From positions 398,689-462,688 of the forward strand of contig CANMDF010000004.1 of the NCBI GenBank assembly GCA_947496605.1: a stretch of 64,000 nt of DNA, read 5' to 3'. The first letter of the stretch is position 1. Each line of letters begins with the position of its first letter. Of this stretch, positions 57,210 through 62,732 are shown one piece after another. The notes beneath the pieces are model-generated. The model had not been told where the DNA came from. It saw nothing but the letters and a program-made list of their open reading frames with translations, and searched no databases. Origin of the DNA: an uncultured Paracoccaceae bacterium (lineage in GTDB: Bacteria; Pseudomonadota; Alphaproteobacteria; Rhodobacterales; Rhodobacteraceae). The position numbers and the translations under genes were made by a program.

Positions 57210-58622
57210 ATGACAATGTTTGAACTACCTAAAGTCGTGGCAACCGCCATTTTAGCAGCAAGCGTTGCATCCAGTGCATTGGCCCAAGAGGTTCAAACAA
57301 AACAATACGATGACGGAGGTATCTATGAAGGAACCTTTGTTGACGGCAAGCAGGACGGAACGGGCACTTACCGCCTCCCCAATGGGTATGAGTATACCGG
57401 ACAATGGGTTGCAGGCGAAATTCGCGGTGAAGGTATTGCGACATTCCCGAATGGGTCAGTTTACGAGGGCGAATTCGTAGCCGGTAAGCCAGAAGGCCAA
57501 GGCCGAATCACTTTTGCAGATGGAGGCACATTTGAAGGTGAGTGGGTCGACGGCAACATCACTGGGCAAGGAATTGCCCAATATGCAAATGGCGTCGTCT
57601 ATGAAGGTGAATTCCGTAACGCGATGCACAACGGCACCGGCACGATGACAAGCCCAGGTGGCTATACTTATGCGGGCAATTGGATCAATGGCGCCAAAGA
57701 AGGCGAAGGTAAGATTACCTATCCGGATGGCGCGATCTACGAAGGTACGTTAAAAGCGGGCGAGCGCGACGGCGTTGGTACGCTGACGATGGCCGATGGT
57801 TTGGTCTACAGCGGCGAATGGGTCGACGGTCAGATCCAAGGTACGGGCGCGCTTTCACAGCCAAACGGTGATGTCTACGAAGGCGCATTGGTCGATGGCC
57901 GCCGCGAGGGCGAAGGTATCGTAACCTATGCAAACGGCGACATCTACGAAGGGTCGTTCTTGAACGATCGCCGCCACGGCACTGGTACTTTCCGCGGGAC
58001 AGATGGCTACACTTATGTTGGCGCATGGGTAGAGGGTAAGATCGAAGGCGAGGGCGAAGTGACCTATCCTGATGGATCGGTCTATGCCGGTACTTTCATG
58101 AATGATCTGGCCGATGGCACAGGCAAGATCACTTATCCGGATGGATCAACCTATGAAGGCGCATGGCAAGCGGGCGTGATCAGCGGTGTTGGCGTCGCAA
58201 CTTACATGAATGGCCTTGTCTACGAGGGTGAGTTCTTGAATGCCAAGAACCACGGCCAAGGCAAAATGACCTATGCAGATGGCTACGTTTATGAAGGTCA
58301 GTGGTCCGAGGGACAGCGCAACGGTTTGGGCCGCGCAGTCTATGCCGATGGCACAGTCTATGTTGGCGAGTTCTTGAACGGTCAGCGTAACGGTGACGGA
58401 GAAATTACCCTGCCTGACGGCTTTAACTATGTCGGCCAGTGGCAAGACGGTGAAATCAGTGGTGCTGGACTCGCGACTTACGTCAATGGCGATGTCTACG
58501 AGGGCAACTTTGTACGCGGTCGTCGTGAAGGCGATGGCACGATGCGTTATGCGACAGGCCAGGAAAGCGTTGGTGTCTGGTCTGATGGTGCACTGGTGTC
58601 AGAGACGGCTGACAGCGAATAA
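57210..58622 (+). CDS. Secreted MORN-repeat protein with 18 full repeats
   Basis: The protein has 470 residues. A signal peptide (ATAILAASVASSALAQ) is followed from about residue 36 by 18 uninterrupted 23-residue MORN units and a partial 19th. The unit pattern is G-x-x-Y-x-G-x-(F/W)-x-x-G-x-x-x-G-x-G-x-x-x-(Y)-x-(N/D). The aromatic at position 8 alternates F/L and W between successive units, except units 9 and 10, which are both non-Trp, so the array seems to have grown in two-unit (46-residue) steps. MORN arrays bind lipids or proteins, and here would act in the periplasm or on the surface. GGAG precedes the ATG. Confidence 0.93.
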   Translation: MTMFELPKVVATAILAASVASSALAQEVQTKQYDDGGIYEGTFVDGKQDGTGTYRLPNGYEYTGQWVAGEIRGEGIATFPNGSVYEGEFVAGKPEGQGRITFADGGTFEGEWVDGNITGQGIAQYANGVVYEGEFRNAMHNGTGTMTSPGGYTYAGNWINGAKEGEGKITYPDGAIYEGTLKAGERDGVGTLTMADGLVYSGEWVDGQIQGTGALSQPNGDVYEGALVDGRREGEGIVTYANGDIYEGSFLNDRRHGTGTFRGTDGYTYVGAWVEGKIEGEGEVTYPDGSVYAGTFMNDLADGTGKITYPDGSTYEGAWQAGVISGVGVATYMNGLVYEGEFLNAKNHGQGKMTYADGYVYEGQWSEGQRNGLGRAVYADGTVYVGEFLNGQRNGDGEITLPDGFNYVGQWQDGEISGAGLATYVNGDVYEGNFVRGRREGDGTMRYATGQESVGVWSDGALVSETADSE

Positions 58623-58679: not shown

Positions 58680-60194
58680 TCATACAGGCTCACCAGCGTC
58701 CATCTTTTGCAAGAACGCGTCCGCCTCAGCCAATACCGTTGCACGACGTGCTTCATCCATGCGGTCCCAAACCCGGTACATATTGCCCATACGTGGATTG
58801 TTTGAAAACCGATCCCGGTGTCGGTCAAGAAAATGCCAATAAAGCAAGTTGAACGGACACGCATTCTCACCCGTTTTATCCTGCACACGGTATGCGCATG
58901 ACCCGCAGTGATTGGACATTTTGTGAATGTAGTTCCCGGATGAGATGTATGGCTTTGACGCGATGATCCCATCATCGGCAAATTGGCTCATCCCTATGAC
59001 GTTAGGTGCCTCTACCCATTCATAGGCGTCGGCATATACGGCCAAATACCATTCATGGACTTCCATAGGGTCTATCCCTGACAACAGCGCAAAGTTCCCT
59101 GTCACCATGAGGCGTTGAATATGGTGGGCGTATGCCTCTTGCTGGGTCTGCCCAACAGCTTTGGCCATGCAGTTCATTTTGGTGTCACCGCCCCAATAGA
59201 CCGCTGGCAGTTGGCGATCATGGCCTAGCGCGTTGCGGGACGTGTAATCCGGGCCCTCGAGGAAGTAGATGCCGCGCACATACTCACGCCAACCGATGAT
59301 CTGGCGGATGAAACCCTCAACCGCATTCAAAGGCGCGTGACCTGAACGGTAAGCAGCCTCGGCCTGCTGGCAGACCTTTAGCGGATCAAGCAGGCCGGCA
59401 TTGAGGTAGAAACTGATGAGTGAGTGATAAAGAAAGCGGTTTTCATTCAGCATGGCATCCTGAAAATCGCCAAACTTGGGCAGGCCACCGTCCAGCCAAT
59501 GGGTCAGTTGTTCTTGTGCTTGCACGGTGTCAGTCGCGAACCAAAATGGGCGAAGGTCACCAAAGTTATCGCCAAAGCGTGCATCGACCAGATCAAGAAC
59601 GTCTTTATCGGGGGCAAACTTCAACGGCCCCTTAAAATGGACCTGATCCGGGGCAGGCTTGCGGTTGTCGTGATCATAATTCCACTTGCCACCCTCGGGC
59701 TTGTCGCCATCCATCAACAAGCCTGTTTTGCGGCGTATATCACGGTAGAAATACTCCATCCGCAGCTGTTTGCGGCCTTCGGCCCATTCTTCAAACTCTT
59801 GGTGAGTCGCGATAAACCGCGTGTCTGGCAAACTGTGGGACTGCAACGGCATGTCGCCCAGCGCTTCGATCAGGCGCCATTCGCCGGGTTCAGTATACAC
59901 AACCCCTGCAGCATCATATTCAGAAGCTCGGCGGATCAATTCGCCCACGATCGACCCTGTGTTGTTGGGGTCATCCAGCTTTGTATAGGCGACAGTCCAA
60001 CCATCTCCGCGCAATTTTTCGGCAAATTTACGCATAGCCATAAAAGTGAACGCGATCTTTTTGGGGTGATGGGGCACATAAGTGGCCTCGCCTGTCACCT
60101 CTGCCATGACCACCACGTCTTGCGCTTTATCGGTTTTTTTCAGAGCGGACAGTTCCGTCGAGAGCTGATCTCCTAAAACAAGAACCAACCTCAC
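58680..60194 (-). CDS. phrB: Fe-S bacterial cryptochrome / (6-4) photolyase (PhrB/CryB type)
   Basis: The 504-residue flavoprotein belongs to the FeS-BCP group that repairs (6-4) photoproducts or signals light. It begins LVLVLGDQLSTELSAL and shows the C-terminal domain with MEVHEWYLAVYADAYEWVEAPNVIGMSQ. Four cysteines for a [4Fe-4S] cluster are visible: one in TKMNCMAKAV, then NHCGSC and ENACPFN, with C-x2-C and a 13-residue step to the last, the spacing of PhrB. The start is a GTG overlapping the SDR stop (GTGA). It is translationally coupled to the SDR gene. Confidence 0.93.
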   Translation of the reverse strand: MRLVLVLGDQLSTELSALKKTDKAQDVVVMAEVTGEATYVPHHPKKIAFTFMAMRKFAEKLRGDGWTVAYTKLDDPNNTGSIVGELIRRASEYDAAGVVYTEPGEWRLIEALGDMPLQSHSLPDTRFIATHQEFEEWAEGRKQLRMEYFYRDIRRKTGLLMDGDKPEGGKWNYDHDNRKPAPDQVHFKGPLKFAPDKDVLDLVDARFGDNFGDLRPFWFATDTVQAQEQLTHWLDGGLPKFGDFQDAMLNENRFLYHSLISFYLNAGLLDPLKVCQQAEAAYRSGHAPLNAVEGFIRQIIGWREYVRGIYFLEGPDYTSRNALGHDRQLPAVYWGGDTKMNCMAKAVGQTQQEAYAHHIQRLMVTGNFALLSGIDPMEVHEWYLAVYADAYEWVEAPNVIGMSQFADDGIIASKPYISSGNYIHKMSNHCGSCAYRVQDKTGENACPFNLLYWHFLDRHRDRFSNNPRMGNMYRVWDRMDEARRATVLAEADAFLQKMDAGEPV

Positions 60195-60853
60195 CAGACA
60201 ATCTCCTGTCCTGCGTAGTCATAGAACCCACCAGATTGCTCTGGCGTCAGACCTTTGATCACAGTGAGCAGATTGCTTGCGGCCTCATTGGCAGGAACCG
60301 TTTTATGCCGACCCGCATAGTTTTCCGTGAATGACGTTTCAACCGTTCCGGGATGCAGTGCGACGCACACGGACTGTTTGTGTGTGCGCCCCAATTCGAT
60401 GGCAGCACCACGCACAATTTGGTTCAACGCCGCCTTCGACGCGCGATAAGAATGCCAACCGCCAATGTTGTTGTCACCAATTGATCCCACACGCGCGGAG
60501 AGGGTCGCCAAGACGCCGCGTTTGTCTTTGGGCAAAAGACGGGCTGCGTGGCGCATGATCAGCGCGGGCCCAATCGTATTCACAGCAAAGACCCGTGCCA
60601 TATCTTCAGGTTTGATCGCAGAGAGCGATTTTTCCGGCGTTCCCCAAAGCGGAGCCAGAATACCAACAGCCACAAAGATCAGATCAAACGGGCCGGTTTG
60701 CATCGCCATGCCGCGCTCAACTGAAGCGGCATTTGCCACGTCAAACCCATCAACTGACCGCGAGAGCCCGGTAACGTCCCAACCATCCCCCTGTAACTGT
60801 GCAAAAATGGATGAGCCTATACCACCGGTCGCTCCTATAATTAATGCGCGCAT
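60191..60853 (-). CDS. Short-chain dehydrogenase/reductase
   Basis: The protein has 220 residues. The cofactor motif is GATGGIGSSIF, the catalytic Ser lies in SARVGSIGDN, and Tyr/Lys in YRASKAALNQ. It resembles CsgA-type SDRs. GGAGAG lies about five bases before the ATG; a frame extension to 60916 lacks such a site. It is coupled to the photolyase gene by the four-base overlap; SDR plus photolyase pairs occur in related bacteria, but the link is not explained. Confidence 0.9.
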   Translation of the reverse strand: MRALIIGATGGIGSSIFAQLQGDGWDVTGLSRSVDGFDVANAASVERGMAMQTGPFDLIFVAVGILAPLWGTPEKSLSAIKPEDMARVFAVNTIGPALIMRHAARLLPKDKRGVLATLSARVGSIGDNNIGGWHSYRASKAALNQIVRGAAIELGRTHKQSVCVALHPGTVETSFTENYAGRHKTVPANEAASNLLTVIKGLTPEQSGGFYDYAGQEIVW

Positions 60854-60984
60854 TGCTCTCTCCTTCGGTTCCACGGGACCTAGCGCCAGTGCAACAGCGG
60901 ACAAGGCGGAGCGCAATGAACATTGCGGTCACGTGACATCACCTTTGCAGGGGCAAAAACTAGCGCCTGATGTACACAAAGCGC

Positions 60985-61012
60985 TTTTCAAACGAAGTTT
61001 CCGCGATATAGT
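60985..61012 (+). promoter_or_regulatory. Candidate promoter of the leuA leader
   Basis: TTTTCA (60985-60990) and TATAGT (61007-61012) resemble -35 and -10 elements with a 16-base spacer. Transcription would start near 61019, almost at the first ATG of the leader peptide. This would explain why the leader ORF has no Shine-Dalgarno site. Prediction only. Confidence 0.35.
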
Positions 61013-61019
61013 CGCCGCC

Positions 61020-61100
61020 ATGATGAACCGCGCACATATCACAAGCTCAGCCTCGAAGGGGCTGCTTCTGCGCGACATCCTACTCCTTAGCTGCCTCTGA
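61020..61100 (+). CDS. Leucine-rich leader peptide of leuA
   Basis: The 26-codon ORF starts at ATG 61020 (or 61023). Its C-terminal part reads KGLLLRDILLLSCL, with seven Leu codons: three at 61062-61070, three at 61080-61088, and one just before the stop. It lies 72 bases before leuA. Such leaders sense charged tRNA-Leu through ribosome stalling. No separate function of the peptide is expected. No Shine-Dalgarno site is seen. Confidence 0.75.
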   Translation: MMNRAHITSSASKGLLLRDILLLSCL

Positions 61101-61165
61101 GCGTGCCTTCCGGCGCGACCGCTCAGAGGATGAAACGCGCCAAGACAAGCTAAGGACTAAAGGAA
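61045..61165 (+). promoter_or_regulatory. leuA attenuator with competing RNA pairings
   Basis: Perfect pairings are visible: (a) CCTCTGAGCG 61094-61103 with CGCTCAGAGG 61120-61129; (b) TCCTTAGCT 61084-61092 (over the Leu codons) with AGCTAAGGA 61148-61156, just before the leuA Shine-Dalgarno AAAGGAA; (c) GGCGCG 61112-61117 with CGCGCC 61136-61141, which excludes (a); (d) AAGGGG 61056-61061 with CTCCTT 61083-61088, which excludes (b). A ribosome stalled on the Leu codons would cover (a) and (b), favour (c), and leave the leuA start free. No T-run follows, so control is probably of translation rather than termination. Confidence 0.7.
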
Positions 61166-61172
61166 TTACACA

Positions 61173-62732
61173 ATGACTAAATCGAACGAAGTGTTGATTT
61201 TCGACACAACCTTGCGCGACGGCGAGCAATCACCGGGTGCAACAATGACCCACGACGAGAAACTGGAAATCGCCGAGATGCTGGACGACATGGGCGTCGA
61301 TATCGTCGAAGCGGGCTTTCCCATCGCGTCCGAGGGCGACTTTCAAGCCGTCAGCGAAATTGCAAAACTGGCGAAGTCAGCGACCATCTGCGGCCTGTCG
61401 CGCGCAAACTACAAAGACATCGATCGCTGTTGGGAGGCCGTGAAACACGCCAAATCCCCGCGCATCCATACCTTTATCGGCACCTCTCCCCTGCACCGGG
61501 CGATTCCGAACCTGAATATGGATGAAATGGCCGAGCGGATCCACGACACTGTGACCCACGCCCGCAACTTGTGCGACAACGTGCAATGGTCGCCCATGGA
61601 CGCAACACGGACCGAATGGGATTACCTGTGCCGTGTGGTTGAGATCGCGATCAAGGCAGGTGCCACGACGATTAATATTCCAGATACCGTGGGCTACACC
61701 GCCCCTGTTGAAAGCGCCGATCTGATCCGTAACCTGATTGCGACCGTGCCGGGTGCGGATGAGGTGGTCTTTGCCACGCACTGTCACAACGATCTTGGCA
61801 TGGCGACTGCAAACTCTTTGGCCGCTGTCGAAGGGGGCGCGCGTCAGATCGAATGCACCATCAACGGTTTGGGCGAACGTGCGGGCAATACCGCATTGGA
61901 AGAGGTCGTAATGGCGCTGAAAGTGCGTGGCGACATCATGCCGTTTACGACGAAAATCGATACTCGCAAGATCATGAACATTTCGCGCCGGGTCGCGACG
62001 GTGTCGGGTTTTGCGGTGCAGTTCAACAAAGCCATCGTGGGCAAGAACGCCTTCGCGCATGAAAGCGGTATCCACCAGGACGGCATGCTGAAAAACCGCG
62101 AAACCTTTGAGGTCATGCGCCCCGAAGATGTGGGTCTTGCGGGAACGTCCTTGCCCTTGGGCAAACACTCAGGCCGCGCGGCATTGCGGGCCAAGCTGAA
62201 TGAGCTGGGGTTTGATCTGGCCGACAATCAGTTGAACGATGTGTTCGTTCGCTTCAAGGATCTGGCCGACCGCAAGAAGGAAGTCTTTGACGACGACCTG
62301 ATGGCATTGGTCACGCAGAACGACACCGAGGATGACCGGCTGAAACTGAAATCATTGCGTGTCGTGTGCGGCACTGATGGTCCGCAAACGGCTGACATGG
62401 TGATGGAGGTTGACGGCACCGATGTTGAAACATCGGCCACGGGTGACGGTCCGGTGGATGCCACTTTCAATGCAGTCAAAGCGATCTTTGATCATGGCGC
62501 GCGTCTGCAATTGTATCAGGTGAGTGCCGTCACCGAAGGCACCGATGCGCAGGCGACTGTATCGGTTCGAATGGAAGAAGATGGGCGCATTGCGACAGGT
62601 CAATCTGCGGATACTGATACAGTCGTCGCCAGTGCCAAGGCCTATATCAATGCCCTGAACCGTTTGCTGGTGCGGCGCGAACAATCCGAGCCGGGATATG
62701 ATGTGAAGGGTGTCAGTTATAAGGACGCTTAA
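61173..62732 (+). CDS. leuA: 2-isopropylmalate synthase
   Basis: LeuA makes the first committed step of leucine synthesis, from 2-oxoisovalerate and acetyl-CoA. The 519-residue protein has DTTLRDGEQSPGATM at the start, the metal-binding His pair in ATHCHNDLGMATANS, NGLGERAGNTALEEVVMAL and HESGIHQDGML. The C-terminal part (about 400-510) is the leucine-binding regulatory domain, so feedback inhibition is expected. AAAGGAA is eight bases before the ATG. A strong terminator follows. A leader peptide and attenuator precede it. Confidence 0.96.
   Translation: MTKSNEVLIFDTTLRDGEQSPGATMTHDEKLEIAEMLDDMGVDIVEAGFPIASEGDFQAVSEIAKLAKSATICGLSRANYKDIDRCWEAVKHAKSPRIHTFIGTSPLHRAIPNLNMDEMAERIHDTVTHARNLCDNVQWSPMDATRTEWDYLCRVVEIAIKAGATTINIPDTVGYTAPVESADLIRNLIATVPGADEVVFATHCHNDLGMATANSLAAVEGGARQIECTINGLGERAGNTALEEVVMALKVRGDIMPFTTKIDTRKIMNISRRVATVSGFAVQFNKAIVGKNAFAHESGIHQDGMLKNRETFEVMRPEDVGLAGTSLPLGKHSGRAALRAKLNELGFDLADNQLNDVFVRFKDLADRKKEVFDDDLMALVTQNDTEDDRLKLKSLRVVCGTDGPQTADMVMEVDGTDVETSATGDGPVDATFNAVKAIFDHGARLQLYQVSAVTEGTDAQATVSVRMEEDGRIATGQSADTDTVVASAKAYINALNRLLVRREQSEPGYDVKGVSYKDA

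Follow-up and report, generated by a model that had tools for sequence, protein, structure and literature searches.

A conserved leucine-codon leader before leuA in Rhodobacteraceae and other Alphaproteobacteria is a candidate LEU-type translational attenuator

The window is a stretch of 64,000 nt from an uncultured Paracoccaceae bacterium, and the features described here lie at its leuA gene (Table 1). The leuA product contains the Pfam HMGL-like and LeuA_dimer domains, and its top match among solved structures is a 2-isopropylmalate synthase. The nearest named records in a plasmid collection are from Rhodobacterales. Upstream of the gene, and following an ORF on the opposite strand (60191-60916), is a short ORF that the initial annotation described as having 26 codons, seven of them Leu, and ending 72 bases before leuA. 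This is confirmed by the letters; the stop codon UGA occupies 61098-61100, and a gap of 72 nt separates it from the leuA ATG at 61173. Elsewhere in the window a 470-aa ORF (57210-58622) is composed of MORN repeats (Pfam PF02493, E 3.1e-97, nine stretches).

Table 1. Features of the leuA leader region, in window coordinates.
Feature	Position	Strand	Remarks
Promoter-like site TTTTCA, 16 nt, TATAGT	60985..61012	+	-10 hexamer 61007-61012, ending 7 nt 5' of the leader ATG
Leader peptide ORF, MMNRAHITSSASKGLLLRDILLLSCL, then stop	61020..61100	+	26 codons, 7 Leu; second ATG at 61023
Leader Leu codons	61062..61097	+	CTG CTT CTG 61062-61070; CTA CTC CTT 61080-61088; CTC 61095-61097
Outer helix, 5' arm UCCU	61078..61081	+	MFE fold; partner AGGA 61161-61164, the leuA SD
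Helix A, 5' arm TCCTTAGCT	61084..61092	+	last Leu codons; fully complementary to the 3' arm
Helix A, 3' arm AGCTAAGGA	61148..61156	+	just 5' of the leuA SD
Hairpin B, arms CCTCTGAGCG / CGCTCAGAGG	61094..61129	+	61094-61103 / 61120-61129; perfect 10 bp; leader stop codon in the 5' arm
Inner hairpin D	61103..61116	+	61103-61107 / 61112-61116; MFE fold; rivals C for 61112-61116
Helix C, arms GGCGCG / CGCGCC	61112..61141	+	61112-61117 / 61136-61141; perfect 6 bp; B loop to downstream sequence, pseudoknot topology
leuA Shine-Dalgarno (SD) site AAGGA	61160..61164	+	read from sequence
leuA, 2-isopropylmalate synthase	61173..62732	+	Pfam HMGL-like and LeuA_dimer

The promoter-like site immediately before the leader is the only one in 60900-61300, where shuffled sequences gave a mean of 0.2. 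In 155 of the 193 elements that we collected, a TATA hexamer precedes the in-frame leader ATG by 6-9 nt. A -10 box at this distance from the ATG implies a leaderless start, and transcription should thus begin at the leader ATG or only a few bases away. This is consistent with the earlier suggestion, made from the TATAGT seven bases before the ATG, that the leader is leaderless or nearly so. Leaderless mRNAs are common in Alphaproteobacteria, with 375 described in Caulobacter (PMC4117421). Within the same interval, 60900-61300, there is no terminator-like site (shuffles gave a mean of 0.7) and no U-run, as the initial annotation had observed in setting this leader apart from the enteric attenuator, and an intrinsic terminator was rejected on these grounds.

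The distribution of the element was examined in the family, sampled as one genome per genus, and in the genus. A LeuA match was found in 149/149 family genomes, from which 144 upstream stretches were taken, and LeuA was found in 56/56 genomes of the genus. Elements were scored by a fuzzy motif allowing up to 7 mismatches in 22 positions; 187 of the 193 matches have no more than 5. Counting the cases where a cupin gene lies between, 141 of the 144 family stretches carry the element, two of them by a second search, as do 54 of 55 congeners, the remaining congener (L180) being unscored. The motif and hairpin searches detected no leader in three family genomes, G118 (L101), G029 (L148/L212) and G090 (L166/L213), which are possible losses or cases of strong divergence. 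The element is located directly 5' of leuA in 163 of the 193 instances, 5' of a cupin gene in 19, 5' of a cupin remnant in one and at other distances in 10. Named carriers are Paracoccus denitrificans and Phaeobacter inhibens in Rhodobacterales, and Methylobacterium bullatum. The gene table of the Phaeobacter record, such tables being incomplete, has no entry for the leader. A record labelled as a 17.9-kb Phaeobacter inhibens plasmid (L383, NZ_CP081282.1) carries leuA together with its leader; this is either a true plasmid copy or a matter of assembly. The combination of an ORF end with at least four Leu in its last eight codons and a hairpin over the stop codon with 8 of 10 positions complementary was present in 147 of the 163 leuA-first stretches, against 0/163 reverse strands and 2/3260 shuffles.

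The pattern TATA-N2-N6-9-ATG was found in 155 of 192 scanned elements and was lacking in the other 37, and all 155 of these promoter-linked ATGs are in frame and open through the Leu run and the stop codon, at 20 different lengths. One third would be expected to be in frame if there were no selection. The 137 family leaders have a mean of 6.6 Leu, with at least four in the last eight codons in 132 of them. Codon choice is also distinctive. CTA accounts for 12.9% of the 901 leader Leu codons (17% in the last eight), compared with 0/1105 in leuA of 30 loci, and CTT for 29.6%, compared with 8.1% in leuA of those loci. Such enrichment could serve a sensor of Leu-tRNA, and might also be caused by pairing constraints. 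Judged from these patterns, the ORF almost certainly encodes a real leuA leader peptide that is under selection. Nearer its start the window leader has CATATC (His-Ile, codons 6-7) at 61035-61040, and 56 of 137 family leaders have this hexamer at precisely the same offset, 15 nt from the ATG. His in the first 11 codons of family leaders is written CAT 90 times and CAC 16 times, whereas leuA of 30 loci favours CAC, 272 to 168.

The minimum free energy (MFE) fold of the window region comprises helix A, hairpin B, hairpin D and the outer pairing between 61078-61081 and 61161-61164. The region folds better than its shuffles (MFE z = -3.05), with 1 of 200 equally good. Through the outer helix the computed fold pairs the leuA SD core with leader codons at a probability of 0.43. 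The 9-base complementarity between the last Leu codons and a segment near the leuA SD, noted in the initial annotation, is exact, and the hairpin that it placed over the stop codon is perfect over 10 bp. The 6-bp helix C that it read as an exclusive alternative to this hairpin also pairs perfectly, but B and C have no base in common, so that their mutual exclusion by position was rejected. Together they would form an H-type pseudoknot, and it is C and D that exclude each other.

Covariation was assessed on a MAFFT alignment of 122 one-per-genus sequences (A1), from which 17 of 139 were omitted because their segments exceeded 126 nt; a second alignment (A2) leaves out 17 further look-alikes, picked by eye. 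On A1, 86.1% of cells are paired for helices A, B and C taken together, and double changes occur at 15 pairs; shuffles gave 83.0% and 8.6, and none of 500 was as high on either measure. Slid controls, in which phylogeny is kept, reached at most 50.7% paired. In these 122 sequences hairpin B is paired in 98.0% of cells with double changes at 6 of its 10 pairs, and helix C in 92.5% with double changes at 2 of 6. Four pairs of hairpin D (61104-61107/61112-61115) are 97.7% paired. Helix A is paired in 65.6% of cells, a low value because its 3' arm is poorly aligned by MAFFT, and we therefore used an alignment-free test of cognate against permuted arms. Cognate arms paired at -10.98 kcal/mol, against -8.62 for permuted arms (z -12.8, 0/2000, n = 133; this permutation ignores phylogeny). 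The genus means from this test (1988), an artefact of an empty partner, were discarded. By the same kind of permutation, likewise blind to phylogeny, z was -9.5 in the 66 sequences with divergent arms and -5.9 in the 67 with the common arm. When the 133 sequences were compared singly with their shuffled downstream regions, z was below -1.5 in 52% and below -2 in 38%. The signal for helix A is strong across the set and uneven among its members. Helix C gave z -10.2 in the family, again with a permutation that ignores phylogeny. These patterns of substitution indicate that helices A, B and C covary within the family, and the conservation of pairings and Leu codons on which the initial annotation had made its reading depend is found among the relatives.

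The effect of the pairing on the ribosome binding site (RBS) was computed for the free RNA and with a ribosome stalled on the leader, leaving aside 10 elements without an assigned first gene and L177, which is cut by its stretch. For the window the unpaired probability of the leuA SD core is 0.52 when free and 0.74 with the stalled ribosome, whereas that of the region -24..-16 changes from 0.12 to 0.78. The modelled helix thus mainly covers -24..-16, with weak outer pairing to the SD. The SD core changes little in leuA-first genomes. It goes from 0.49 to 0.58 in the family (n = 123) and from 0.46 to 0.63 in the genus (n = 36), and among the 123 family members the SD opens by more than 0.2 in 34 and closes in 6. 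The region -24..-16 goes from 0.23 to 0.62 in the genus (n = 36) and from 0.43 to 0.57 in the family (n = 127). leuA's own SD lies 3' of helix A, and is the stronger, within the proper range of positions for an SD, in 136 of 163. Simple masking of the SD in the window is weakened by these values.

A cupin gene lies between the leader and leuA in 19 elements (L009, L014, L025, L049, L052, L054, L056, L057, L059, L177 and L203-L211), where the element sits 5' of the cupin; the one copy tested is Pfam Cupin_2. A remnant-like cupin sequence is present at L050, with L051 and L060 read by eye, and the remnants in a few relatives suggest that the cupin gene has been lost there. In the cupin-first loci the 3' arm of helix A lies over the SD; the median distance from its end to the cupin ATG is 3 nt in 5 family sequences and 6 nt in 12 of the genus. 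Scoring of the RBS covered 18 of the 19 elements, and the unpaired probability of the SD core rose from 0.04 to 0.49 (6 family) and from 0.17 to 0.59 (12 genus) on stalling. The masking of translation proposed in the initial annotation is therefore clear at the cupin SD in the modelled folds, and only partial in the window; direct SD masking is predicted clearly in the cupin-first genomes only, and in leuA-first genomes, the window included, helix A mainly adjoins the SD. Helix A thus lands on or beside the RBS of whichever gene is first, and no other observation speaks more strongly for an output at the level of translation. In the folds the site is as open with a ribosome placed at the stop codon as with one stalled on Leu codons, so the model depends on the departure of the terminating ribosome.

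To look beyond the family we built a covariance model, R1, on the core of B and D from 105 sequences of the window's family; the E-values of the tool are rough. In the window's own genome R1 gives a single match at E ≤ 0.1. Over 385 genomes of the class it gives 30 at E < 0.005, where about 2 are expected by chance (5 of the 30 are in the family), and 52 at E ≤ 0.1, where about 38 are expected. The latter number is near that of chance, and we therefore rely on the 30 and on 15 inspected loci outside the family (L222-L236). The motif precedes LeuA in 15/15 of these, with leaders ending, for example, in LRLSRP or LLLLICP before the stop. A search for LeuA in 96 class genomes found a close LeuA in 42, 30 of which gave loci. 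Among 28 loci outside the family (L354-L381) the motif TTA...CC[CT]C-stop was present in 20, and R1 matched just 5' of leuA at E ≤ 0.05 in 18. Helix A gave a cognate z of -7.2 in the wider class (35 entries, 31 distinct; a permutation that ignores phylogeny), with its 3' arm 2-70 nt before the ATG. For helix C, 31 alphaproteobacterial sequences from beyond the family showed no preference for the cognate arm (z +1.3, phylogeny again ignored). Alphaproteobacterial families other than the window's also have the element 5' of leuA.

R1 also recognises LEU-like elements before actinobacterial leuA, having been built from the window's family alone. At least 80 actinobacterial loci (L237-L316) were picked by the leader pattern of Streptomyces lividans, which makes the R1 test on them partly circular; among the matches listed, R1 found the element in 74 of 80 at E ≤ 0.1 (42/47 and 32/33). 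CTTAGC is kept in 79 of 80 of the loci among the matches listed, and was not demanded by the pattern. The AGCU of this motif pairs in a predicted hairpin. In nine whole actinobacterial genomes the match with the element's score was the best of the genome in eight, with E from 6e-4 to 1.45. In an unselected test on 148 actinobacterial genomes R1 matched at E ≤ 0.05 in 14, where chance would give about 7. Of these matches, 10 start 213-344 nt before a LeuA motif and the other four do not. This test used stricter filters, and G586, matched in the whole-genome run, was missed. Helix C is nearly invariant in Actinobacteria, so that its permutation test is uninformative there (z -0.4, 70 sequences). 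The likeness between the phyla may be due to common descent, transfer or convergence.

Ribosome-read leaders are familiar in other forms. In the enteric leu attenuator a Leu-codon leader peptide is read by the ribosome, and a U-tailed terminator provides control of transcription; the Leu-codon leader is common to that system and this one, and the terminator is found only in the enteric form. In translational attenuators of the ermC type a ribosome stalled on the leader by a drug makes the RBS of the following gene accessible. Here the logic is shared rather than the membership, since the ermC stall is induced by a drug and that proposed here would come from a shortage of Leu-tRNA. The closest comparison is with the LEU element before actinobacterial leuA, described by Seliverstov 2005 (PMC1262725) as a Leu-run leader with a base stem between Leu codons and SD, a pseudoknot and an alternative hairpin. 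The Leu-run leader ORF before leuA, the base stem between Leu codons and RBS and the hairpin loop that pairs downstream all have counterparts in the sequence of the window, whose host belongs to a phylum other than Actinobacteria; hairpin D is the putative counterpart of the alternative hairpin. The base stem lies on the SD in the LEU element as described there, and mostly ends 5' of it in the window's leuA-first relatives. The stop codon is in the hairpin stem here and in the loop in the actinobacterial loci inspected, and the arrangement with a cupin gene between leader and leuA, seen in the window's relatives, is a further difference. With most features shared, and the stem on the SD in part, the element is a variant of the LEU element. 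The initial annotation had missed this close match, and the presence of the element in other alphaproteobacterial families.

Several described leaders share parts of this design. S. lividans leuL1 is a leaderless, Leu-rich leader (with an LLLLS run) before leuA and has no typical intrinsic terminator (PMC8079986); in all of these respects it is like the window leader, while being shorter and having a C-terminal half of CRGEGL. The uORFC-8-2 motif before cysS is, like the present element, an attenuator candidate of Rhodobacterales, but differs in its Cys codons and intrinsic terminator (PMC8632094); 'leuA' has 0 occurrences in the accessible main text of that paper. trpL of Sinorhizobium meliloti, a leaderless alphaproteobacterial leader sORF with Ribo-seq coverage, serves transcription attenuation with Trp (PMC10117765). 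Our literature search found no earlier report of an alphaproteobacterial leuA leader, and a mention may exist in the proteobacterial survey of Vitreschak 2004. Rfam at gathering score had no match at the element in 14 loci (there was one tRNA elsewhere in L278), and at a relaxed threshold gave three chance matches on the window, all far below gathering score, so that a known Rfam family was rejected.

Our best reading is that the element is probably a translational attenuator of leuA of the LEU type. The sequences compared show a leader ORF under selection, the position of its promoter, the three helices A to C and the lack of a terminator. The mRNA would begin at or beside the leader ATG, and ribosomes would load on the leader without an SD. 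When leucine is plentiful they would translate through the Leu run and be released at the UGA, which lies in hairpin B, whereupon the Leu codons would pair with AGCTAAGGA as helix A, stabilised by hairpin B and pairing C, and the closed helix would block or crowd the RBS. When leucine is short a ribosome would stall on CUA, CUC or CUU and cover the 5' arm of helix A, keeping the site open so that leuA is translated. That ribosomes stall, that leucine shortage is what switches leuA on and that control falls on translation are inferred. The sensing of leucine by the ribosome is very probable, and the output at translation is the likelier outcome. Against this reading stand the small change at the SD in leuA-first genomes, the variable position of the helix A 3' arm across the class, the 65.6% pairing in the alignment and the 38% of single sequences with z below -2. 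Further points against it are that the folds do not separate a stalled ribosome from one at the stop codon, and that Streptomyces leuA experiments cited by Seliverstov 2005 were at odds with classical attenuation.

The same leader and sensor might act instead through Rho. With helix A closed, leuA or the cupin would be poorly translated and Rho would terminate transcription, which a stalled ribosome would prevent. The lack of an intrinsic terminator fits this scheme, as does the limited opening of the SD itself in leuA-first genomes, and Rho has been suggested for the terminator-less cys leaders of some actinobacteria (PMC1262725). On the other hand the spacer from leader to leuA is short and structured, and helix A tracks the RBS of the first gene in cupin-first genomes, a sign that translation is affected first; we regard termination by Rho as rather unlikely. 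An attenuator of the enteric type would account for a Leu-run leader peptide before a leu gene and for alternative helices. It would also need the terminator, and with neither a U-run nor a terminator-like site in the window, nor an Rfam match at gathering score, it is highly improbable.

A different division of labour was proposed for the LEU element by Seliverstov 2005, who favoured a binding protein because, by that account, earlier Streptomyces leuA mutants and experiments did not fit classical attenuation (PMC1262725). Applied here, the element would be the binding site of a regulatory protein and the leader peptide secondary. The strongly conserved nucleotides of B and C and the near-constant CTTAGC of the actinobacterial loci are what such a site would have. 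However, the uniformly in-frame ATGs, the choice of Leu codons and the use of those codons as a covarying helix arm point to the ribosome as the sensor, and we think a protein site improbable. A chance ORF with chance hairpins would call for nothing beyond a short ORF, but the near absence of the pattern from the reverse strands and shuffles, the 155 promoter-linked ATGs that are without exception in frame, and the same layout in other families of the class reduce its likelihood almost to nothing. Returning to the preferred reading of a translational attenuator, we tentatively suggest a wider connection, which is possible without being the likelier case: the alphaproteobacterial leuA leaders and actinobacterial LEU elements would be one and the same RNA element, with a single origin for both phyla, in which the Leu codons of a leaderless leader make up one side of a lid on the RBS, closed by a pseudoknot. 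On this view the LEU element would be a translational switch worked by the ribosome and not a protein-binding site.

The analysis gives a central biosynthetic gene, in many families of the class, a conserved RNA control element that drew no Rfam match, and links it to the LEU element, for which the 2005 account did not settle the mechanism. The cupin-first genomes are natural experiments, in which the predicted lid lies on the SD of the cupin. Whether a LEU element works through the ribosome or through a protein can now be tested in Paracoccus or Phaeobacter.
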